From: a virus
DNA length: 43,004 bases
Strand: one strand, 5' to 3'
IMG/VR virus record: IMGVR_UViG_3300006919_000111
Span: 1-43,004 of that record
Part shown: in pieces, positions 10,920-24,998 of the stretch
How the letters are laid out: every line of letters begins with the position of its first letter
Position numbering within the stretch: the first letter of the stretch is position 1
Notes under the pieces: model-generated
What the model was told of the DNA's origin: nothing
The model's input: only the letters and a program-made list of their open reading frames with translations
Database searches by the model: none
Program-made: the position numbers and the translations under genes

Positions 10920-12467
10920 CTATGCGAGTGCGGCTGTCTTCTCTTCCCTTGGCCAGTCAATCATCAACTGCTCAACGCAGTCCTTGACCGTCCACTTCAG
11001 AGCGATTCGGAACTGGTAAGCATCTCGCAGGGACTGAGTGTCCACCACTTGACGAATGCCTTTCTCCTTCACATTTTTGCGGATGCGGATCCACTCACTT
11101 CGCAGTTCGCTATCAGGACACAATGCCTGTTCGACTGCTGGTGAGTAGTCCCATTCAATCAGGTTCATCTTGAACCGTCGAAGCGTAGCCTTGTCGAGTT
11201 GGTTTCGACCTACATACATCCGATCTCGCCCGTTGCCAGTGGTGTTTGCACCAGCGATCAGGACGAAGTTTGAGTGACGCTCAGCAAAGGGCTTTTCAAC
11301 CCTGTTCGGCACTGAGATTCGACCACCAGACACTGCGTCGTTAATCACGATCAACACATTCGGATCTGCTGCATCCATCTCATCCAACAGGAACACTCCA
11401 CCATTCTCGTAGAGACGGATGAAGTCAGACTGAGCGTATTCAAACTTGCCACCTTCTCCCGAAGGGATGAGACGGCCAAGCAACTGCCCCTCAGACATTC
11501 CCGCTGAGCATGAGATCGAAGCGTAGTCACGGTCAAGGGCTTTCGCTACTTGAGCAGCAGCATGAGTTTTACCTGAGCCTGATGGACCGACCAGGAATGC
11601 GTTTGGCATCACCTGGACTCGATTCAACAACTCAGTGAACTTCTCATGCACCAGCCCCACAGGAACTTCCGTTCCTTGGGGAGTCACGACAGTGATCTTC
11701 TTAGCTCCAGCTTCATCCAGAGCCTTTTCAACTTGCTCAGCAACAACAGCAGGCAACTTCGTTGCAACTGCCTCATCGACTGCTGAGCCTGACCACTTGT
11801 CCACCAGGATTTTGACTTGCGTCTCATCCACTCCATCCTTGGACCGATGCTTGCGGATTGCTTCGGCAACTTGCTTGCCAAACATTCCATGCTGCTGCTC
11901 AAGGATGTCCAGAGCCTGTGATGCGTCCTCATCAGCGTCCTGCTTGACAGTCGGCTTCTGAATCAGCGTCTTCAAGTCATCCATGATCGGTGCTTTGAAG
12001 TCTGCACCTTCTCCTTTGGAAATTGGCCAAGGCCAGTCACCGTAGTTGGTGATTCGACTCGCCCAAACATCTCCGCTGGAAAGACCTTGCTTGACTTCTT
12101 GGAAGTCGATGTTTCCAACATTGGTTTTCTTGACGAAGATCCCTTGATGGTTCAAGACCTTGCGAGCAAGGTACTTTTGAGTTCGGTTACTGCCAGCAAT
12201 GGCCACACGGCCACTGTCAGCATCTCCGTCCACATTGGAAACTCCAAAAGTTGGATGATTCCAAGGTGCTACTCGACTGCTGTGTTCGACGACAATCGTA
12301 GAACCGACAAAGGGCTTGCCGAAAACTGGATTGTCAGAGTGGACACTCTCAGCCATTGCAAAGTCTTGCGCTGACTTGAGATCCTTGAACTGTGCTTGCC
12401 GAGCAGGGATGAAGTACATCCTCTCGGGATTTTCATTGTCCTGCACATGGCGAAGGACTGCATACAT
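10920..12467 (-). CDS. MoxR/CobS-type AAA+ ATPase
   Basis: 515 aa. The C-terminal half is an AAA+ module: Walker A GPSGSGKTH (K300), a pore/substrate loop region SAGMSEGQLLGRLIPSGE typical of the MoxR/CobS/dynein-related clade, Walker B VFLLDEMD (D362, E363), a sensor 1 region ending in GANTTGNG, and Arg residues in the DKATLRRF segment that can serve as the arginine finger. The N-terminal 200 residues are of unknown type. MoxR ATPases work as chaperone-like remodellers with VWA proteins, and CobS inserts cobalt with the VWA protein CobT; a VWA-like gene follows directly. The ATG follows a Shine-Dalgarno sequence held in a hairpin loop. ATPase call sure, substrate unknown. Confidence 0.9.
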   Translation of the reverse strand: MYAVLRHVQDNENPERMYFIPARQAQFKDLKSAQDFAMAESVHSDNPVFGKPFVGSTIVVEHSSRVAPWNHPTFGVSNVDGDADSGRVAIAGSNRTQKYLARKVLNHQGIFVKKTNVGNIDFQEVKQGLSSGDVWASRITNYGDWPWPISKGEGADFKAPIMDDLKTLIQKPTVKQDADEDASQALDILEQQHGMFGKQVAEAIRKHRSKDGVDETQVKILVDKWSGSAVDEAVATKLPAVVAEQVEKALDEAGAKKITVVTPQGTEVPVGLVHEKFTELLNRVQVMPNAFLVGPSGSGKTHAAAQVAKALDRDYASISCSAGMSEGQLLGRLIPSGEGGKFEYAQSDFIRLYENGGVFLLDEMDAADPNVLIVINDAVSGGRISVPNRVEKPFAERHSNFVLIAGANTTGNGRDRMYVGRNQLDKATLRRFKMNLIEWDYSPAVEQALCPDSELRSEWIRIRKNVKEKGIRQVVDTQSLRDAYQFRIALKWTVKDCVEQLMIDWPREEKTAALA

Positions 12468-15282: not shown

Positions 15283-17001
15283 TTAGAACCATGATGGACC
15301 ATTGTTCTTTCCCAATGAGATGCGTGATTTCCGTGGGGAGGCATCCATCTCGTCATAGAAGACATCTAGCTCTTTGTTCAGAGCTTCCTGGTGTCTCTCC
15401 TCCATGACCTGCTTGGCATCAATGACCATGGTGGTCCCCCAATACTCAGCAGCCATGGCCACAGCATCCAATCGGTCATCATGTTTGACTGCACCTTTGA
15501 GACGCTGCATCCGAGTGGCCTGCCAAGTGAATCGGTAGCTCCCTTTGTTCAAGTGGTATTCGGGAGACTCGACACTCTGATGGTCATCCAAGATTGCCTG
15601 CTTAGAGACGATCAATCTGTGGTTGGTCCACACTGGTTCCAGTGCATCCAGGATCCTTCCCTCCTTGGCTTTGGTGTGTCTCACATCAGTCACAGTGACT
15701 GGATACCCATTGTCCACCAATGCCTTCTTGAGAAGCGAGCTAAAGGCTCCTCCTCCGTAGTTCTCCTCACAGATGATCTCTCGGACACCAAACTTCTTAG
15801 CAGCCTGAGCGAGCTTCCCAAGGGTGTCTGAGCTATACCCATCCATGGACCCACCCACATCAAGCAAATATAGGAATCCGCTCTTGTGTCCCATGACACA
15901 CCAGCTAGTCTCATCCTTACCCTTGCCTGAAGGGTCCACAGCCATCACTATTCCATCGTATGGGGCGTACTCCCCCAGGACTTCCATGGGTGCAAAGAAC
16001 CTGTCTCCAGGTAAACCTACCACAGGTAGATCTTTGATCTCCTGACCAGGACCAGAAGCCCAGATCACTCGACCTGGAGCTAACTCAGGGTCCAAGTCCA
16101 TGACAACCAGATCCCTGAGTTTGAGGGGATACCGATCAGCATCACTGAGGCTGGTGTCTAGTTGGAACTGAAGTGCAAACCCGGTAGGTCCATAGCTCAG
16201 TTCACGCTCCAGGAGGTCTTCTTCAGAGAAGCGTTTAGGGTCTGTCCCCATCCAGATCCTAGAGGGGTCTTCTATCTGTGCTTCAATCGAGGGAGCAAGG
16301 TTGGAGCCATACTTGACTTCCACAGTCCCTGGTCTTGGAACTCGTGCTGGCCACACTTTGAGATCCCAGCCCCTAGCTGGAAGCTTGTTGTACAGACTGG
16401 CCTCAATCTGAGGAGTCCCCAGGTAGATGATGTGGCCCCCTGGTTTGATCACCGAGTCAAACTCCTTCACCAACTCAGCAATCTTGTCTTGCTTGTGTTG
16501 AGTCTCTGAGTTCTCTGGTGTCTCAATGTCGTCAGCCACGATGATGTCAGCACGACTGCCAGTCAACTGACCAGTGATTCCCACTGACTTGACTGATGGT
16601 GAGTGGTCTGGTCCACAGAGGCTCACATCGAACGCCACATTGCTGAAGCGTTTGTCGTCCCCTGGTTCAGGGACAAGGTGTTGGAGCATGGGCCACTCCA
16701 TCATCACTCTCTTACAGAAGGTTGAGAAGGCTTGTGCGCGTTCCTTAGACGCAGACACCACCATGATCTTGAGATCAGGGTTCAGTAGGAGACACCAAAG
16801 AACATAGGCAGAAGTCTCATAGGACTTACCTGCTCCACGGAAGGCTTCAATGACTCGTCGTCTAGGACCGTGTTGCAGATACTCAGCAATCTCGTACTGA
16901 ACAGGTGTTGGCTCGGGTAGACCGAGGAACGACCACATCAGAAACAAGAAGTTGCGAAAGTCTCTAAGCTCTTCAGGAACCTCTGCGTCAGCGTGCTTCA
17001 T
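15283..17001 (-). CDS. large terminase subunit (T7 gp19-like)
   Basis: Packaging motor with ATPase and nuclease. ATPase: Walker A AFRGAGKSYET (K59) and Walker B DIIVADDIE. Nuclease: AVDPSGKG (D356), IICEENYGGG and KHDDRLDAVAMA supply the acidic metal ligands of the RNase H-like fold. 572 aa (T7 gp19 has 586). The start ATG shares its first base with the stop of the small subunit gene. It is the last gene of the late operon and is followed by a terminator. Confidence 0.96.
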   Translation of the reverse strand: MKHADAEVPEELRDFRNFLFLMWSFLGLPEPTPVQYEIAEYLQHGPRRRVIEAFRGAGKSYETSAYVLWCLLLNPDLKIMVVSASKERAQAFSTFCKRVMMEWPMLQHLVPEPGDDKRFSNVAFDVSLCGPDHSPSVKSVGITGQLTGSRADIIVADDIETPENSETQHKQDKIAELVKEFDSVIKPGGHIIYLGTPQIEASLYNKLPARGWDLKVWPARVPRPGTVEVKYGSNLAPSIEAQIEDPSRIWMGTDPKRFSEEDLLERELSYGPTGFALQFQLDTSLSDADRYPLKLRDLVVMDLDPELAPGRVIWASGPGQEIKDLPVVGLPGDRFFAPMEVLGEYAPYDGIVMAVDPSGKGKDETSWCVMGHKSGFLYLLDVGGSMDGYSSDTLGKLAQAAKKFGVREIICEENYGGGAFSSLLKKALVDNGYPVTVTDVRHTKAKEGRILDALEPVWTNHRLIVSKQAILDDHQSVESPEYHLNKGSYRFTWQATRMQRLKGAVKHDDRLDAVAMAAEYWGTTMVIDAKQVMEERHQEALNKELDVFYDEMDASPRKSRISLGKNNGPSWF

Positions 17002-17216
17002 TAGCCAAGGGCTTCCGACTGCTCAATGTTGAATGGCAGGACTTTGCCTTCGACTTTCTTCTTCAACTTCTCTAGCTGAGACTCATCTTTGATGGCCACA
17101 GTGATTCCGTTGTCTTTCAAGAACTTGATGGAGGCTAGTAGATCTCCAGTCGAACATTCGTCATCAGCCACCCTGTTGATCAGGGTCTTCGTGACTAGCT
17201 CGTGGAGGTCGTCCAT
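17001..17216 (-). CDS. small terminase subunit (T7 gp18-like)
   Basis: 71 aa, charged and helical, with LLASIKFLKDNGI and a Lys-rich C-terminal half; directly before the large subunit, where T7 has gp18 (89 aa). It would recognise phage DNA for packaging. I chose ATG 17216 (MDDLHELV) with the weak site AAGAAAAG. A longer frame up to 17330 is only the shadow of the overlapping lipoprotein gene and lacks a start signal. Call rests mainly on position, size and helical content. Confidence 0.7.
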   Translation of the reverse strand: MDDLHELVTKTLINRVADDECSTGDLLASIKFLKDNGITVAIKDESQLEKLKKKVEGKVLPFNIEQSEALG

Positions 17217-17652
17217 CTGACTTTTCTTCGTTGTCAATGGTCTGTACCTTTGATTTGAGTTTGAGGATCCACCCGAAGAACCTTCTTGGGTGGGTGATGA
17301 TGTAGATGAAGACCAACAGGCCCATCCCACCGAGAACCCAAGGCTTCGCTACTGCTTTCGCATTGTCGTTGATGAACTTCTGTACATCTGGATCCTCTGT
17401 CAACAGCGCGTAGGTCAGGGAGTCTGTGCGTTTCTCTTGGTGCTTGATCTCAAGGTTGGAGTCTGTTGCCTCCATCCAGAGCGCACCAAGCATCCCACCT
17501 ACAAGAGTCCCTACGGGACCAAGCGTAGATCCAGCCACAGCCCACATAGCAATGAAGCCTGCTTCCAGACCTTCTTCTGCAAGTTGTCGAGGCTGACCTG
17601 CTTGACACCCTCCAAGAGAGAGTGCCATGCACAGCAGGATTACACGAACCAC
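17164..17652 (-). CDS. predicted lipoprotein with C-terminal membrane span, possible spanin
   Basis: 162 aa from a GTG start. The N-terminus is a lipoprotein signal: VRVILLCMALS, then lipobox LGGC with C16 as the lipidated residue. A Gly-rich hydrophobic segment lies at 31-60 (VAGSTLGPVGTLVGGMLGALW) and a clear membrane span at 104-120, followed by a basic, then hydrophilic tail. A lipobox plus a C-terminal span is the layout of unimolecular spanins (for example T1 gp11), which fuse outer and inner membrane in the last step of lysis. The extra Gly-rich segment is unusual. It lies between other membrane proteins and the terminases, as lysis genes do in T7-like phages. Confidence 0.65.
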   Translation of the reverse strand: MVRVILLCMALSLGGCQAGQPRQLAEEGLEAGFIAMWAVAGSTLGPVGTLVGGMLGALWMEATDSNLEIKHQEKRTDSLTYALLTEDPDVQKFINDNAKAVAKPWVLGGMGLLVFIYIITHPRRFFGWILKLKSKVQTIDNEEKSDGRPPRASHEDPDQQGG

Positions 17653-17759
17653 GAGATCACGACACTCAGCAACATTCCCATGAGAACCATGAAGACATCG
17701 CGTGAGAACCTGTGCTGAGGATCAGCTAGGTGGAGTTTGAGTTTGGTGAGTGTGTTCAT
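17640..17759 (-). CDS. 39-aa single-span membrane peptide, holin-like candidate
   Basis: A short gene in another frame, starting ATG 17759 inside the end of the 101-aa gene and ending TAA 17642-17640 inside the start of the lipoprotein gene. The N-terminal half is hydrophilic and basic (NTLTKLKLHLADPQHRFSRD); residues 22-39 form one membrane span, VFMVLMGMLLSVVISWFV, ending at the stop. Overlap on both sides suggests coupled translation. Small one-span proteins in lysis cassettes are often holins or antiholins. Ribosome binding site is weak. Not proven to be expressed. Confidence 0.5.
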   Translation of the reverse strand: MNTLTKLKLHLADPQHRFSRDVFMVLMGMLLSVVISWFV

Positions 17760-18027
17760 TCAATCGAGTTTCAAGTATTTTGAGTTGGTGAGAGAGTTTC
17801 AGGACTTCGACTGTAAGGTTACCGTCTTGAGTCAGAGCGATCGTCTCCAGTTTTTCAATCCTGCCAGTAAGCCTGTTGACATCGGAGATCAATCTCTTGA
17901 TCACCCAACAACAGACAAGGATTAAGCAAGCAGTAAGACTAGAAGACACAGTAAGCCAAAAGGCTGCATCTGTATTCCCTGGTGTTTGTGCGTCAAGAAC
18001 GGACAGGAAAATGAACACCGTTACCAA
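17722..18027 (-). CDS. membrane protein with coiled coil, lysis candidate
   Basis: 101 aa. A short hydrophobic N-terminus (VTVFIFLSVLDA) is followed by a strong membrane span at 22-43 and then a long heptad-like coiled coil (about 45-93). The frame opens at a TTG that overlaps the stop of the GH10-like gene (TTGGTAA); a GTG three codons on is an alternative. No clear ribosome binding site. A span followed by a coiled coil is typical of i-spanins, and T7 has its holin at this place, so either role is possible. Confidence 0.6.
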   Translation of the reverse strand: MVTVFIFLSVLDAQTPGNTDAAFWLTVSSSLTACLILVCCWVIKRLISDVNRLTGRIEKLETIALTQDGNLTVEVLKLSHQLKILETRLNEHTHQTQTPPS

Positions 18028-19082
18028 GAGGAGTATTGAGGACCAAGAACAGAGATGTTCCCGGTAATCAACTTTCGTTGATTGTTGTCATCGAACAGTA
18101 AAGGCTGTTCAGTTGGATAGGTACTTCCGTTCTTTTCGTAGAGCCAAGAGTATTTGTCTGAGAGTCCCCAGAACCAGATGCCTTTGACACCTGCATTCTT
18201 AGCTGCACGGAAGAGACGAGAGGCTACTAAGGCAGCAGCCTTCTGTCGTTGAATGTCGGTAGTACCGTTAGGCAGAGTAGATGTCGTGAAGTCGCATTCA
18301 GTAATCAGCACTTGACCAAATACTTCATTCAATCGCTCAAACCCTTGTTGCATCCCAGCTTCAGAGTAGTTGATCAGACAGTCCATGTGACTCTGCGAGC
18401 CAATGAAGAGTCGTTCTCGTTCAATGTAGCCGTTGTTGACCAAGTAGTTAGCTAGGTCCACATATGCATCAATCTTGTCAGAGTACAACGAGTAGTCATC
18501 AATCTTGTAATCGTTCAAGCCGATCATAGCTTTCGTGTCTACGAGGGCTGCACGCTGAACATTCTGACCAATCTCTGCAAAGGTCAGGTCATCCACATCT
18601 TCAAAGGTCTTGATTGCTCCTGTACTGTTCAGGAGTTCGTTCCAGACCTGGATGTAGTCGAACCGACCACGGAAGTAGCCAACCACAGTGTCGATGTGAA
18701 CATGGTTAGCTACGATTCGTTCCCCCTGATCAACGATTGGATAGCCCTTGTTGACCGGGAAGAAGGTCGGTTTAGCCCACAGCAGTGTATGGAGCATCGT
18801 GACTGCTCTGTGCTGCTCCGCATAGGCCAGCATCGCCTCAGCAGTAGTCCAATCGTAAGTGGAGTAGTTGGGCGCACCATCAGCAAGTAGCTGATTCCAC
18901 TTCATAGCGTTGCCATCCAGGTATCCCTGGAACTTACTGAACAGTAGGTTCCTGGATTCTGAGTCTAGATCGGCATCATCTACATGGAGCATGGCTCCAA
19001 TGAACGGATCTTTGAGGGATTTAGTCCGATTCCGGCGAGTGTCTCGGAACCGGGAGAAGAGTTTACGAGCAGTCATGCACAT
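18021..19082 (-). CDS. GH10 (xylanase-type) glycoside hydrolase, probable virion depolymerase
   Basis: 353 aa. From about residue 30 the sequence follows the GH10 endo-xylanase fold: NAMKWNQLL near the start of the barrel, HTLLWAKPTFF, IDTVVGYFRGRFDYIQVWNELL with the acid/base Glu (E149), LNDYK, FIGSQSH, ITECDFTTS with the nucleophile Glu (E262), then GIWFWGLSDKYSW. The two Glu are 113 residues apart, close to the 100-110 usual in GH10. There is no signal peptide, so it is not exported by the host; its place among fibre genes suggests a tail-associated enzyme that cuts a surface polysaccharide. Substrate need not be xylan. Confidence 0.82.
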   Translation of the reverse strand: MCMTARKLFSRFRDTRRNRTKSLKDPFIGAMLHVDDADLDSESRNLLFSKFQGYLDGNAMKWNQLLADGAPNYSTYDWTTAEAMLAYAEQHRAVTMLHTLLWAKPTFFPVNKGYPIVDQGERIVANHVHIDTVVGYFRGRFDYIQVWNELLNSTGAIKTFEDVDDLTFAEIGQNVQRAALVDTKAMIGLNDYKIDDYSLYSDKIDAYVDLANYLVNNGYIERERLFIGSQSHMDCLINYSEAGMQQGFERLNEVFGQVLITECDFTTSTLPNGTTDIQRQKAAALVASRLFRAAKNAGVKGIWFWGLSDKYSWLYEKNGSTYPTEQPLLFDDNNQRKLITGNISVLGPQYSSW

Positions 19083-19083
19083 T

Positions 19084-19467
19084 CTAGGCCGATGGGACCG
19101 GGTAGCTGATGTAGATCACAACAGAGCGTGCTGAAGCATTGCCGTTGTAGAACTGCATCCGTGGAGGCATGACATTGCCTGGAACATATCCAGCGTAAGT
19201 CGTGCCGTCAGCCATCTTCAGTTGACCAGCAGTATTAGTAGCAATGAGATTCTCAAGGTCACGGGCGTTAGTGCCGTCCGTTTCCCATTGATCAGTGCCA
19301 GTGTTCCAGCTAGGCAGGAACATATCGACATCAGCACCTGAGACAGTGATGAAGACAGAGACTGCTCCGTGAGTGTTGATGATGTCTGACCATTCAGCGT
19401 TAGCAAGGTTTGAGATCGTCACTACATGAAGGTAGCGGTTGACCTCATCAATGATTTTAGTAGCCAT
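19084..19467 (-). CDS. hypothetical tail-module protein, 127 aa
   Basis: Beta-rich protein of about 127 aa: strands such as YLHVVTISNL, AVSVFITVSGADVDMFLPSW and a C-terminal SARSVVIYISYPVPS. It looks like a small structural or carbohydrate-binding beta sandwich. It lies between the two glycoside-hydrolase genes, one base or so from the next start, so it may link or support one of them on the virion. No family recognised. Confidence 0.7.
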   Translation of the reverse strand: MATKIIDEVNRYLHVVTISNLANAEWSDIINTHGAVSVFITVSGADVDMFLPSWNTGTDQWETDGTNARDLENLIATNTAGQLKMADGTTYAGYVPGNVMPPRMQFYNGNASARSVVIYISYPVPSA

Positions 19468-19474
19468 TGTTTAG

Positions 19475-21265
19475 TTAGAGTTGGAAGGAGGAGTGTTGAC
19501 CAGACACCAGCCGTGCTGCGTCTAGTAGTTTGAAGGAGCCATCGGAGTCAGCAGCAGCATCTTCAAGAGTGGTGCAAAGCGACCAGTACCCGTCAGGGTT
19601 AGAAGGCCCGGTCAAAGTAAACCACGACCATCCAGGGACTTTGCCTCCGGCTGTCGTGAAGATGCCGCACCAAGTCTCATGCGCCAATCGTAGAAGCTCT
19701 GCGAACCTGTCCGATTGGTACTGGTTGACGAACTCAAGAAGCTCTGGCGTTCCGCTGTTCCCCCCGTAACCGGCGCAGTGGTGGTTAGCCTCGTATGCAA
19801 CGATGCTTTTGTCAGGCCAGTGGACAAAGACCTGATCGGCGTTCTTTTGCCAAGTGTCTCCGATTGCGCCGTTTGTGTGGAACTGCGTAATCTCATACTC
19901 AATGGAGTCGTAGCCTTCTGTGAAGTCGGGTGACTGATCCTCTCCGTTGGTGACATTTCCTGGTCCGCCTTTGGTAGTGTTCAATGCGCCGCCAGAGATC
20001 CAGTTCACACTGCCAGTGAACCAAGAACCAAAGTAACCCGAGAACCCGAAGGTCGGGAAGAAGTCACCAGTCATGTCCGTCGAGCCAGAGTCAAACGGCT
20101 CCGACGAGTTGCACTCGTAGGTGTTTTTGTTGCGACCCGTGTAGCCAGTCTGCATACACAGGACTGGACAGAAATCCTTGCCTGCTGCATCGAAGACAGT
20201 TTCGATGATGTCCATGACTTGCTTGGCTCGGAAGCCACTCTGCCTCCACGCCGGGTAAGAGTCTCCACCGTGACGGCCATCGCCTGCCCCTGGGCTACTC
20301 TCCGTGGCTACCTCTTCGGCAAGGCCAGTCTGGTGCATGATGGCGTTGATGGCGAACCCGAAGTTCCACATCTCATTCGATAGCTCGATGATTGGTGGCC
20401 CTGTATCGAAGTTGTGGAAGGTAACGAGATCGGTTGCCCAATCCGTCACGGCAGCATCGGTGAACTCGCCGGGGACGCAGTACCAGCCCTGCACTCCACA
20501 CGCACTGACCAGTTCGCACAGCGCACGAAGAGGCATTCCACCTGTGCGGAACTCGCCTGCGCCACCGTTGTAGGGGCCGTGCGAGAATGTCGCAAAGGTG
20601 TAGGGCTTCGTCTTCCCTGCTGCGTTGTAAGTGGTATTACCAGACTTTTGGTTCGTTGCAGCCTCGTTCATGACGCGGATGTGACCCCAAGGGGCCACTG
20701 CATCAATGCGTGACTGTCGAATGAAGTTCGCTCCACCTACGCGAGTAGTTCCTGCAAGACTGGTTTCACAGATCTCAACATCACGGATCGGGTCGAGAGC
20801 ATACGCCGCTGCCCCTCCTGGACTCGCATCAATGTCCGCCTTTGAAATCTTGAAGGTGATGGTCCCCGCCATTGCGGTAATGTTGTAGTCCGTGTGCTGC
20901 GGGTTTGTGGCATCGGTTACCGTCCCCGCCGAGCCACCGTTAAAGATGATGGACGGCTTGACCCCATTACCGCCAACCCAGGAGCAGCGATAGTCCGTGT
21001 ATGGGAAGTCCCCGTCCGCTGGGCTTGTGTGGAGGACGGTCTGGATGTGGCTCGACGCTGAACCCACACCTTCAGGCCAGCCATCGTCACTGTAAGTTCC
21101 ATCGAATTTCGCCCATGTGTTGTCCACCCACCCGGGACGCGCCTTGTAGTAGATATTGTTGAATGGGCAGCCGCCCTCATAGTCCGAGACAGGCTCAAAC
21201 TGAACGCCCTCAATGGCGCAGTTTGACTTACGCGGATTCGTAACTAGGAACTCAAGGCGAGCCAT
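19475..21265 (-). CDS. second glycoside-hydrolase-like protein (TIM-barrel type, SNEMWN)
   Basis: 596 aa. About residues 180-560 read as a TIM-barrel hydrolase: IIELSNEMWNFG with a probable acid/base Glu (E298), and SIVAYEANHH with a probable nucleophile Glu (E492) at the end of a strand, as in clan GH-A enzymes and in a group of secreted proteins with the SNExWN and VAYExxxH pair. The first 170 residues are beta-rich and probably an attachment or binding domain. No signal peptide. It overlaps nothing but is packed between fibre-module genes. GC content is higher than in the structural genes to the right. Substrate unknown. Confidence 0.65.
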   Translation of the reverse strand: MARLEFLVTNPRKSNCAIEGVQFEPVSDYEGGCPFNNIYYKARPGWVDNTWAKFDGTYSDDGWPEGVGSASSHIQTVLHTSPADGDFPYTDYRCSWVGGNGVKPSIIFNGGSAGTVTDATNPQHTDYNITAMAGTITFKISKADIDASPGGAAAYALDPIRDVEICETSLAGTTRVGGANFIRQSRIDAVAPWGHIRVMNEAATNQKSGNTTYNAAGKTKPYTFATFSHGPYNGGAGEFRTGGMPLRALCELVSACGVQGWYCVPGEFTDAAVTDWATDLVTFHNFDTGPPIIELSNEMWNFGFAINAIMHQTGLAEEVATESSPGAGDGRHGGDSYPAWRQSGFRAKQVMDIIETVFDAAGKDFCPVLCMQTGYTGRNKNTYECNSSEPFDSGSTDMTGDFFPTFGFSGYFGSWFTGSVNWISGGALNTTKGGPGNVTNGEDQSPDFTEGYDSIEYEITQFHTNGAIGDTWQKNADQVFVHWPDKSIVAYEANHHCAGYGGNSGTPELLEFVNQYQSDRFAELLRLAHETWCGIFTTAGGKVPGWSWFTLTGPSNPDGYWSLCTTLEDAAADSDGSFKLLDAARLVSGQHSSFQL

Positions 21266-21268
21266 CTT

Positions 21269-21514
21269 TTACCCTCCAAGGACACTGCGTGCGTTGTACT
21301 GGTCTTCTCCGTCTTCGCTTAACAGCTTAAACTGAGTAGTGATTCCGTGAGCTTTTGGAGTGCGCCAGATGCCCGGTTCTTTGGCAACGAGTAGACCACC
21401 AAGAGCAAGCTCTTTGATTCCCTTGAGGTCTTGAACAGTCACTTCAGATTCTGCGAGCAGAGTCCCGGTAGCTGTGTCAAAGACTGTGCGTTTGAAGGTG
21501 AGGGGGAACGCCAT
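21269..21514 (-). CDS. small fibre-module protein A, 81 aa
   Basis: Starts at ATG 21514 overlapping the stop of the next gene upstream (TAATG). Pattern: N-terminal PLTFKRTVFDTATG, a helical middle, then EPGIWRTPKAHG. It shares this pattern with its neighbour 21514-21750 (PIQLKKTVLEEGG ... SPGVWRGHRPNG), so the two look like paralogues. They could be small fibre-associated proteins, fibre chaperones or linkers. A longer start at 21529 is possible but has no advantage. Confidence 0.65.
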   Translation of the reverse strand: MAFPLTFKRTVFDTATGTLLAESEVTVQDLKGIKELALGGLLVAKEPGIWRTPKAHGITTQFKLLSEDGEDQYNARSVLGG

Positions 21515-21750
21515 TACGGAGTCCCCCACAGGCTGTTCAGTTCTTCTAGCTGTGCCTCGTTTGGCGTTGCAAGTTCGATTGCAACGGGCTTACCGTTTGG
21601 GCGATGGCCCCGCCAGACTCCCGGCGAAGAGGGTGTTAGTTTGCAAAAGTCCTTGTACCGCGCAGCCCCTCTTGGGCTTTCGACAAGGGCTTCCGTAACG
21701 ACTGCGCCGCCTTCTTCCAGGACGGTCTTCTTTAGTTGGATTGGGTACAT
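21514..21750 (-). CDS. small fibre-module protein B, 78 aa
   Basis: Follows the tail fibre gene after two bases. Similar in order of motifs to the 81-aa gene next to it: PIQLKKTVLEEGG, then SPGVWRGHRPNGKPVAIEL and an acidic C-terminal helix. Function unknown; the position directly after the fibre suggests an assembly factor or a fibre-tip component. Confidence 0.65.
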   Translation of the reverse strand: MYPIQLKKTVLEEGGAVVTEALVESPRGAARYKDFCKLTPSSPGVWRGHRPNGKPVAIELATPNEAQLEELNSLWGTP

Positions 21751-21752
21751 GA

Positions 21753-24700
21753 TTAGACGATTGCGGTATCAACATACATGATGCAACTGATGGCGACATT
21801 GCCATGTGAAACGGGTGTGCCTGCGCCGTGAATGAAGTGCCACTCAACTATATCTCCGACCGCAACTGTCTTGTCTGCGAGAGTTGAAGTCATAGCACCC
21901 GCATCGTAGCTTTGATATTGCAAATGCTGTGTCGCGTTGTTCACATCTACGGGAGTTGCTAGGATTGTTCCGACATTGTTGTTGAGGTTCCAGTCATACT
22001 GCCAGTAGTTCGATGCGTCGGGGGCCATGTATACACCCGCGTGGTAACGGATCTCGGTAATCACACCGGGGACCGTAAACATACCCGTACAGGGCCGACC
22101 TAAGAGTTCGCCGGTGTAGGGCGTGATGCAAGTGAACAGGTGAGGAACGCGGCGAGTCTTCGCATACCAAACCGCAGCGGTAGCAGTTGCGTCTTCGCAG
22201 GTGTAGACAAGCTGGGTCGCGGTGTCGTAGTGCGTGTCGCCGACAGCGTGAGCAACAAAGTCACCCGTTGCGTTATCGCTGTCCCAAGTAGCGAGGGGAG
22301 GCCCAGCCGACTCGGTGTGACTGCCGCCACCACTAGCTCCGTGCTGGTCGATGTATGACTTAATGTCAGCTGGCGAGTGCGACCTCTCCGCGGTCTCCGT
22401 CGCTGCCGTAATCTCGCCTGCACTAGCCTGTACTGCGTTGACTTCAGCACCTGTGGCGATTCCGTCCAGCTTCGTGCCATCAGCAGCAACATCTCGACCG
22501 TCAACCGTTCCGCCAACGACGATGTTGGTAGTTACATCGAGGTCATCAACATAAGCCGTAGCGAACCGAGTGCCAGTCAGTCCGAGGTCGCGGGTTCCGT
22601 CAGCGTCCGGCGTGATGACCGCATCGACCACATCGCTCCACAAATCGCCAGCACCGCCAGCATTCACCTGATCCCAGACTGCTGCACCAACACCGACCGA
22701 CCTAGCCCACCAAAGCGTTTGCAGAGTCGTGTTCCACCACCAGCTACCCGCTGCGAAGCCAAGTGAGCTATCGTCAGAGGCAGTTGGGTCAATCGTGGTG
22801 ACCGTGGTTTTGCGTGGGACAATCCCCATCGCCGTGTGCGCGGTCTCGACGAGCTGCTGGGGAGTCGAACGGATGAGTGCATCCGTGCCGCTGACATCTC
22901 TTAAGAGAACTTCGTCGAGAGCCGCCGGACCTGTTGCAGCCGCCAAGCCTTCGATGACATCTTCAATCGACTTCTCCGTTGTGCTGCCACCACCACCGCC
23001 ACCGCCATCAATCTGCGCCCAGACTGCTGCCGTCGCCGTGATGTCCTGACAGATCCAGGACTTGTCAGTGGTCGTGTTGGTCCAGAGGTCGTTGACGATG
23101 TGGACCGTGCCGTTGGTTCCCGCGCCATCGTCGTTGACTCCTGGATCGGTGGTTGTCGTGATTCGGTTCTGGGGGACAATCCCTAACGCCGTGTGTGCAG
23201 TTTCAACGATCTGTTGAGCAGATGCCTTCCGCATCGTGCCGTCATCGTCGTAGTATTCAAACAGGTCAGCCGCTGCTGGCGCAGCTTGAGTTAGCGTACC
23301 GATGACGATCCTCAGGTTGGCAACCGTCAGAGGAACAAGGCTTGCCACAGCAACACCATCAACAGTACCAACATTGGTGATGTTGAACCCACCACCGTCT
23401 AGGTCTGCCCCCAACTCTGGGGAAAGGTCTTCAACAATGTTGTTTAGGGATCCTCCGCCACCTCCACCTGAGCCAAGCACAGTGTCCGTGCCAGCAGGGT
23501 TGGTGAAGACCAGAGTGCCATCATCCTTGTGCCAGATGATTCCGATTCCTGCGGCAGGAGTCGTAGCATGGTCAGCCCGCTCAGTCAGAACGATCTCTTC
23601 ACCCACCTGAGCTTTGTCCATGTGGACATCGCCAGTCATTGGCATCAGGACAGTGTTCGTTCCTGCGTTGTCGATGGTTGCATTCGCTGCACCGAGCAAG
23701 AAGACACGATCCTGAGTGTTCAGATCAATCGTGTATCCAGTGCTGGTCAGGTGTGAACCACAGTTGATGAGTACCGTGTCTGTGGCAGCATCCAAGTTGA
23801 TGTCAACCACAGCATCCAACTCACCATCCTTGCGACAGACATTGGTGAGAGTGGTTCCAATACACCCGAACGAAGACACTCCGTCATACCCGACAAAGAT
23901 GCCGTCTGCTCCCAAGGGAGAACCGCCTGCAACAGTAGTCAATCCTACCAGAGTCAGTGAGTTCAAGTCAGTGTATGCACACCCAACCAGCTTCACTGCA
24001 CCACCCACAGGAGTGATGAAGGTCAGGTTCTTCAGACGGTTGGAAATGCAGTAAGAAGATCCACTGGTGTCTTCGATGGTGACGGGGTAGACCCCACTTC
24101 CAAGGAAGGCAATGTCACTGACGATGTTGGAATCAATCCCGATTGCACTACCAGTCAGGTCAATAGCAGAAACAGTAGACGATGCGCTGATAGTCCAAGC
24201 GTTGCCTCCAATGAAGTTGAAGGAGAACAGTGCTGAACCATTACCACGAGTGTTAATGATCGCAGCATCAGTCTTGTCCTGTTGGGCTTCTTGGAAGAAC
24301 AGGTAGGTGTACTTACAGGAGCCAAGGATGTCGATGACATGACCACCTGCTGACTGTCCCCAGATCTCATTGACACTCATCTTGAGGTAGTTCACTGCGC
24401 TGTTACCAGCAACTTTGAACATAGCCTCTGAGTTGTTGTTGATCAGCCGAGCATCCTCTGCGTTAATGCTGATGTTGTCTCCATCAATCTCAATCCCGTG
24501 AACGATGTAGTCGCCTTCAGGGAAGTAGATGGAGTCGTACTCAGCTAGAGCAGCCTGGACAGCAGCCGAAGAGTCAGCGACACCAGTAGGGTCAGCACCG
24601 AACTCAGTCACAGAGACTGATGGAGCATCGAAGGTGTCAAAGCTCTCTTGCGAGATGTAGAGATTCTGAAGCTGAGCAGTGTTCAGATCAGCAGCCCGTA

Positions 24701-24998
24701 GCATAGAAGCATCAGCAAAGTTGATGATCTGGCTAGCTGTATCCTTCGGAGTCACTCGACGGATGCTGATTGCTGCCCCGCTTGCGGGAATCGCAGCAGG
24801 CTCAAAGACCACCTTTGGTGTAGTAGTCTCATCAATGGTGTAGTCAGTGCTAATGACTTGAGCTATCCCATCAACAGTCACTTGGATGTGAGTCTGCTTG
24901 AGGTACGGCTTAGAGTTGACACCGGGTTCGTCCGCAAAGACGATGTTGTAATCGGTGGTTACTCCGTCGCCTTCGTAGCTAACTGAGGAATATGCCAT
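21753..24998 (-). CDS. tail fibre / tailspike with T7 gp17-type N-terminus
   Basis: 1081 aa. Residues 1 to about 125 match the T7 gp17 N-terminal particle-binding domain (SVSYEGDGVTTDYNIVFAD, IRRVTPKDTASQIINFADAS, DLNTAQLQNLYISQE). From about 130 comes a pectate-lyase-type beta helix (VTEFGADPTGVADSSAAVQAAL, IYFPEGDY). After a poly-Gly linker the C-terminal half has fibre repeats (NIVEDLSPELGADLDGGG; VETAHTALGIVP and VETAHTAMGIVP) and three copies of a Trp-rich module ending in AAVW, with a second poly-Gly linker. Base composition rises clearly in the C-terminal half. It would bind, and may cut, the host receptor. Its start shares bases with the stop of the internal protein gene. Confidence 0.9.
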   Translation of the reverse strand: MAYSSVSYEGDGVTTDYNIVFADEPGVNSKPYLKQTHIQVTVDGIAQVISTDYTIDETTTPKVVFEPAAIPASGAAISIRRVTPKDTASQIINFADASMLRAADLNTAQLQNLYISQESFDTFDAPSVSVTEFGADPTGVADSSAAVQAALAEYDSIYFPEGDYIVHGIEIDGDNISINAEDARLINNNSEAMFKVAGNSAVNYLKMSVNEIWGQSAGGHVIDILGSCKYTYLFFQEAQQDKTDAAIINTRGNGSALFSFNFIGGNAWTISASSTVSAIDLTGSAIGIDSNIVSDIAFLGSGVYPVTIEDTSGSSYCISNRLKNLTFITPVGGAVKLVGCAYTDLNSLTLVGLTTVAGGSPLGADGIFVGYDGVSSFGCIGTTLTNVCRKDGELDAVVDINLDAATDTVLINCGSHLTSTGYTIDLNTQDRVFLLGAANATIDNAGTNTVLMPMTGDVHMDKAQVGEEIVLTERADHATTPAAGIGIIWHKDDGTLVFTNPAGTDTVLGSGGGGGGSLNNIVEDLSPELGADLDGGGFNITNVGTVDGVAVASLVPLTVANLRIVIGTLTQAAPAAADLFEYYDDDGTMRKASAQQIVETAHTALGIVPQNRITTTTDPGVNDDGAGTNGTVHIVNDLWTNTTTDKSWICQDITATAAVWAQIDGGGGGGGSTTEKSIEDVIEGLAAATGPAALDEVLLRDVSGTDALIRSTPQQLVETAHTAMGIVPRKTTVTTIDPTASDDSSLGFAAGSWWWNTTLQTLWWARSVGVGAAVWDQVNAGGAGDLWSDVVDAVITPDADGTRDLGLTGTRFATAYVDDLDVTTNIVVGGTVDGRDVAADGTKLDGIATGAEVNAVQASAGEITAATETAERSHSPADIKSYIDQHGASGGGSHTESAGPPLATWDSDNATGDFVAHAVGDTHYDTATQLVYTCEDATATAAVWYAKTRRVPHLFTCITPYTGELLGRPCTGMFTVPGVITEIRYHAGVYMAPDASNYWQYDWNLNNNVGTILATPVDVNNATQHLQYQSYDAGAMTSTLADKTVAVGDIVEWHFIHGAGTPVSHGNVAISCIMYVDTAIV

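Follow-up and report, generated by a model that had tools for sequence, protein, structure and literature searches.

A predicted GH10 beta-glycanase in the tail module of a T7-like phage, probably directed at a polysaccharide of the host

Introduction

Here, we describe a protein of glycoside hydrolase family GH10 that is encoded by a T7-like phage. It is probably a catalytically competent, retaining beta-glycanase that the phage would use against a polysaccharide of its own host, such as exopolysaccharide (EPS), capsule or matrix, as judged from conserved residues, predicted fold and gene neighbourhood. The DNA analysed, called the window below, comprises the 43,004 nucleotides of the IMG/VR virus record IMGVR_UViG_3300006919_000111. 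Characterised phage depolymerases are overwhelmingly beta-helix proteins. This also holds for the Klebsiella depolymerases characterised so far, which centre on the beta-helix (PMC13385381). One paper names xylanases, but only as one class of depolymerases of the hydrolase type (PMC6872550), and a literature search that had most subscription journals outside its reach returned no description of a phage GH10 depolymerase.

Results

A preliminary description of this DNA had placed a GH10 xylanase-type gene at positions 18021-19082. These coordinates are exact and the gene lies on the minus strand, where they delimit an open reading frame of 353 amino acids; the plus-strand frame is broken by stops. 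Residues 28-338 match the Pfam family PF00331 (Glyco_hydro_10) with E=3.4e-33 and 115.6 bits, the curated Pfam cut-off being 22.1 bits, and the matches that phmmer finds among PDB sequences are GH10 xylanases, from E=1.8e-17. The barrel that had been proposed is also found in the predicted structure. An AlphaFold2 model from three-sequence input is of moderate confidence (pLDDT 67.7, pTM 0.72, last 50 residues weak) and predicts a (beta/alpha)8 barrel of GH10 type. The top matches of this model are GH10 enzymes both in Foldseek, where the best PDB hits are GH10 xylanases (top E=4.9e-14), and in VIA-align against GH10 structures (Z 24.4, rmsd 3.1 over 289 residues). None of the matches listed for the same model from a viral fold library was named GH10, the named phage matches being mostly GH5-type barrels, and a PHROGs search with the protein gave no match. 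The gene is intact. The same phage is represented by a further contig (L002, metagenome 3300006802), 99.6% identical to the window over 10.4 kb, in which the gene shows 0 nucleotide differences. The 353-residue protein is an apparently intact member of the GH10 family. We also considered whether base composition speaks for recent transfer and dropped this reading, as the GC contrast (0.485 for the gene, 0.506 for the window) is not telling.

GH10 had been thought unusual in phages, and the searches agree with this. Three GH10 queries against INPHARED (50,697 records) matched only unannotated faecal "Bacteriophage sp." contigs. Two of the GH10 contigs were inspected, the remaining MT83xxxx matches being unannotated; H1 and H2 were rejected as phage GH10s, since their contigs have genes that read as bacterial housekeeping genes (tryptophanyl-tRNA synthetase, flagellin, phosphoglucomutase). 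The INPHARED "Bacteriophage sp." records MT837910.1 (L009) and MT835713.1 (L010) read as bacterial chromosome fragments. Among the 2.9 million contigs of IMG/VR at least 13 carry GH10 (L002, L003, L004, L016 and nine more), a lower bound from four scans limited by peptide patterns that includes some near-duplicates and perhaps some bacterial contigs. The single match on a cellular-genome contig (L008) was discarded as a GH10, because that genome has no PF00331 match.

The closest relative of the window protein is 47% identical and is encoded by an unrelated phage (L003), which has a T4-type terminase and portal and comes from metagenome 3300006802, the same as L002. Among nine window proteins compared, GH10 alone is common to both phages. 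In a tree of 33 GH10s the two share a clade (100/100) whose branch measures 2.76 changes per column, and cellular GH10s sampled from 398 Pseudomonadota genomes reach no more than about 27-28% identity to the window protein. Beside its terminase L003 encodes a 1002-residue protein (L003:3705-6713) that reads as a T4-type neck protein with a polysaccharide-lyase-like part and has no Pfam or PHROGs match. More distant are the GH10s of two phages from 3300048849 in IMG/VR (L168 and L170), in which the domain (residues 705-1032 and 889-1216) forms a fusion with a Prophage_tail protein (genes at L168:706-5942 and L170:2844-7562). In both, a second, free GH10 comes after the fusion gene, and an endolysin gene lies a few genes further on. 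The free GH10s have a short N-terminal helix and a proline-rich linker; that of L168 has no PHROGs match.

The two glutamates that had been proposed as catalytic stand 113 residues apart, and in all sequences compared they align with the GH10 acid/base (E149 in VWNE, codon 18636-18638, minus strand) and nucleophile (E262 in ITEC, codon 18297-18299, minus strand). In the alignment, the full catalytic and -1 subsite set is kept (N58, K61, H98, W102, N148, E149, Q230, H232, E262, W305 and W313). The conserved pair implies that the enzyme would work by retaining double displacement, the mechanism established for the family. The glycone site is different. Most classical GH10s have Glu just before the Asn of the N-x-x-K motif, but here the residue is Gly57. 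The segment behind HTLLW is also shortened, classical GH10s having two more residues after HTLLWA; in Cex it is this segment that contains Gln87. We take the xylanase-type -2 subsite, with residue roles from Cex, to consist of the Glu before Asn and of His/Tyr and Gln after LVW. By alignment, the window protein is without these features at two glycone-site positions. Because Gly57 replaces Glu and the post-HTLLW segment is shortened, its -2 subsite should differ from that of xylanases. With two xylanase glycone-site features missing, a xylan-like target, as offered in the preliminary description beside other beta-linked surface polymers of the host, is not supported by the sequence.

The changed -2 subsite and the divergent, long-branched clade might also be expected of a barrel that serves mainly to recognise glycans and hydrolyses them little or not at all. 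We regard this as improbable, since pure binders usually lose the catalytic and -1 subsite residues, whereas both phage proteins (window and L003) keep them all. A catalytically competent enzyme is the reading that we follow.

As had been noted before, the protein is without a signal peptide. Hydropathy reveals no hydrophobic N-terminal segment that could serve as signal or anchor; the best 15-residue Kyte-Doolittle mean is 0.41, compared to 1.83 and 3.29 in two signal- or anchor-bearing GH10s. About 25 residues precede the barrel and form a short, basic N-terminal extension, which might hold a docking peptide. Neither Pfam nor PHROGs recognises a virion anchor domain.

The window covers nearly all of the genome of a T7-like phage (Autographivirus group). 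It encodes a single-subunit RNA polymerase, a connector, tubular proteins, a tail fibre and a T7-type terminase (small and large) in T7 order, along with SSB, primase-helicase, exonuclease, capsid and internal virion proteins; the DNA polymerase gene is open at the contig end. The nearest terminases, about 51% identical, belong to phages of Rhizobium, Mesorhizobium, Roseobacter and others. A MoxR-like AAA ATPase (10920-12467, minus strand; phrog "porphyrin biosynthesis") is also present in this autographivirus and adjoins a gene for a 376-residue protein with a weak DUF7192 match.

The position in a T7-like tail module that had been described is correct; the GH10 gene comes after that of the T7-type tail fibre and before those of the terminase. 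All genes of this stretch are on the minus strand, and those from the two small paralogues described below to GH10 are closely packed, with gaps of 1-7 bases or overlaps. The tail fibre (21753-24998) joins a T7 anchor domain (PF03906, E=4.9e-26) to the start of a pectate-lyase-like beta-helix (PF12708, E=1.7e-8). It is followed by two adjacent genes (21269-21750) for paralogous proteins of 78 (21514-21750) and 81 amino acids (21269-21514), which match each other in BLASTP with E=5e-6 and are without known relatives. Next come a 596-residue protein (19475-21265) and, 1 base upstream of the GH10 gene, a 127-residue protein (19084-19467) with no family or phage match and no homology found to the 150-residue protein beside the GH10 of L003. 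Downstream of GH10 are two possible lysis genes, one for a 101-residue protein with a transmembrane segment (17722-18027) and one for 162 residues with a lipoprotein-like start and a hydrophobic segment (17164-17652). The small terminase (17001-17330; DNA_Packaging_2, PF11123, E=4.2e-15), whose true start is probably internal, and the large terminase (15283-17001; phrog_38, E=1.5e-118) complete the stretch. In four annotated relatives (RHEph21, TRX32-1, Lo5R7ANS and CRP-227) only short genes lie between tail fibre and terminase.

This setting bears on a metabolic role. GH10 is a xylanase family, a study of mangrove soil viromes counts viral GH10 among the auxiliary CAZymes (PMC6460857), and the fold matches of the window protein include the intracellular xylanase IXT6. 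As an auxiliary metabolic gene it could thus provide the infected host with carbon from plant or algal xylan or, like IXT6, from imported xylo-oligosaccharides. However, we consider this unlikely. The protein lacks a signal peptide, and its gene sits in a structural and lysis operon away from metabolic genes. The changed -2 subsite also speaks against such a role, as does the occurrence of the sister GH10 of L003 in a phage that, by our reading of its genes, has lysozyme-like and lyase-like genes of its own.

The same operon invites the idea that GH10 or the 596-residue protein helps to break the host envelope in place of an endolysin. No endolysin was recognised in the window, the GH10 gene directly precedes the genes for the transmembrane and lipoprotein-like proteins, and the free GH10s of L168 and L170 lie close to endolysin genes. 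Still, this seems even less likely than a metabolic role. GH10 enzymes are not known to cut peptidoglycan. The separate endolysins of L168 and L170 mean that GH10 is no replacement there, and several window ORFs to which no function is assigned are candidates for an endolysin. We retain a glycanase acting on host polysaccharide as the preferred role.

The 596-residue neighbour belongs to a family for which Pfam, PHROGs and NCBIfam offer no model. Its motif reads E[YL]SNExWNxxF ... YExxxH; N297-E298 (SNEMW in the window protein) is present in 46/46 aligned family sequences and E492 (AYEANHH) in 96% of the 46. This matches the pattern of clan GH-A, an Asn-Glu acid/base and a second catalytic Glu, from which we infer the likely role of each glutamate. 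A single-sequence AlphaFold2 model of the protein alone (pLDDT 32.8) is too poor to judge a barrel. Relatives occur in 12 of the 398 Pseudomonadota genomes and the family was found at 41 IMG/VR loci. EPS marker genes are present in 8/10 newly fetched regions around family members (p=8e-8, with related genomes uncorrected for), a count that leaves out the two regions from which the marker genes were taken. In one viral contig the 596-family domain occurs within a 2225-residue tail-fibre protein (L147:4693-11367), together with collagen repeats and a GDSL-lipase-like domain. At L130:1-3465 a Sulfatase domain is fused to a 596-family domain. Common as it is in viral contigs and EPS loci, this GH-A-like family is perhaps of wider interest than the GH10 protein.

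Cellular GH10 genes, too, are found near EPS genes. WecG-, WcaJ-, Wzx- or Wzy-like genes are present in 10/40 cellular GH10 loci and in 0/40 control regions from the same genomes (Fisher p=5e-4, relatedness uncorrected; 30/40 loci are without a marker). The loci compared were mostly 20 kb and their GH10s are distant relatives of the window protein. In one of them (L059), GH10 lies amid flippase-, polymerase-, sulfotransferase-, glycosyltransferase- and WcaJ-like genes, these assignments being made partly by reading. Taken together, the EPS loci of cellular GH10s, those of the 596-residue family and the GH10-tail fusions of two phages point to EPS or capsule of the host as the likeliest target of the window enzyme. 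In this indirect way, the part of the preliminary description that named a host surface polymer gains support.

Discussion

We infer activity, substrate and timing of the enzyme as follows. The gene would be expressed late, a timing suggested by its position, in a carbohydrate cassette of beta-helix tail fibre, 596-residue GH-A-like protein, 127-residue protein and GH10 that starts at the tail fibre and leads up to the lysis and packaging genes. The host polymer would be bound in the cleft of the barrel, E262 would attack the anomeric carbon, and E149 would protonate the leaving group and then activate water. In this way slime might be opened for adsorbing virions, or progeny might be freed from it. 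We give about equal odds to a protein carried on the virion, docked via its short N-terminal extension, and to one released by lysis. A more specific proposal is that phages have a GH10 subfamily of their own, with an altered glycone site, cleaving a bacterial EPS that would be new as a GH10 substrate, jointly with the 596-residue protein, which would represent a new glycoside hydrolase family common to phages and bacterial EPS loci. We put this forward tentatively, as less likely than not.

The window protein shares fold, catalytic Glu pair and -1 subsite residues with GH10 xylanases such as Thermotoga Xyn10B (1vbr/3niy) and Cellulomonas Cex (2exo). However, it is only about 25% identical to them or less, is without a signal peptide, has Gly57 and a shortened post-HTLLW segment, and falls in a phage-specific clade. 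With the podovirus tailspike depolymerases (Erwinia phage L1, phiEa1H, Klebsiella phage enzymes) it has in common the position in the tail module and the presumed purpose. Yet the characterised tailspike depolymerases are trimeric beta-helices with anchor domains (PMC13385381), whereas the window protein is predicted to be a single TIM barrel and has no recognised anchor. The L168 and L170 fusions also place GH10 in a tail module and have the same catalytic pair, but they are about 20% identical to the window GH10 and joined to a tail protein, while the latter stands alone. Free enzymes against a host exopolymer are likewise encoded by Bacillus phage phiNIT1. These soluble capsule-degrading enzymes (cited in PMC6966330) are a poly-gamma-glutamate hydrolase and a levanase, of other types and for another host. 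Free depolymerases may help progeny to spread in biofilm (PMC6966330), and WceF is a precedent for a bacterial EPS-locus hydrolase akin to phage tailspikes (PMC7949094). The task of a depolymerase is known; the GH10 fold and this subfamily are presumably new for it.

If the proposed role is true, a GH10 enzyme acting against bacterial slime would widen the range of depolymerase folds to look for, and a family of enzymes classically known from plant xylan would be linked to bacterial EPS. One type of GH10 in two unrelated phages, with L003 sharing its metagenome with L002, would point to a common and identifiable host polymer. The 596-residue family, as yet unmodelled, occurs in viral contigs as well as in EPS loci and is a candidate new family of glycosidases that lends itself to testing.
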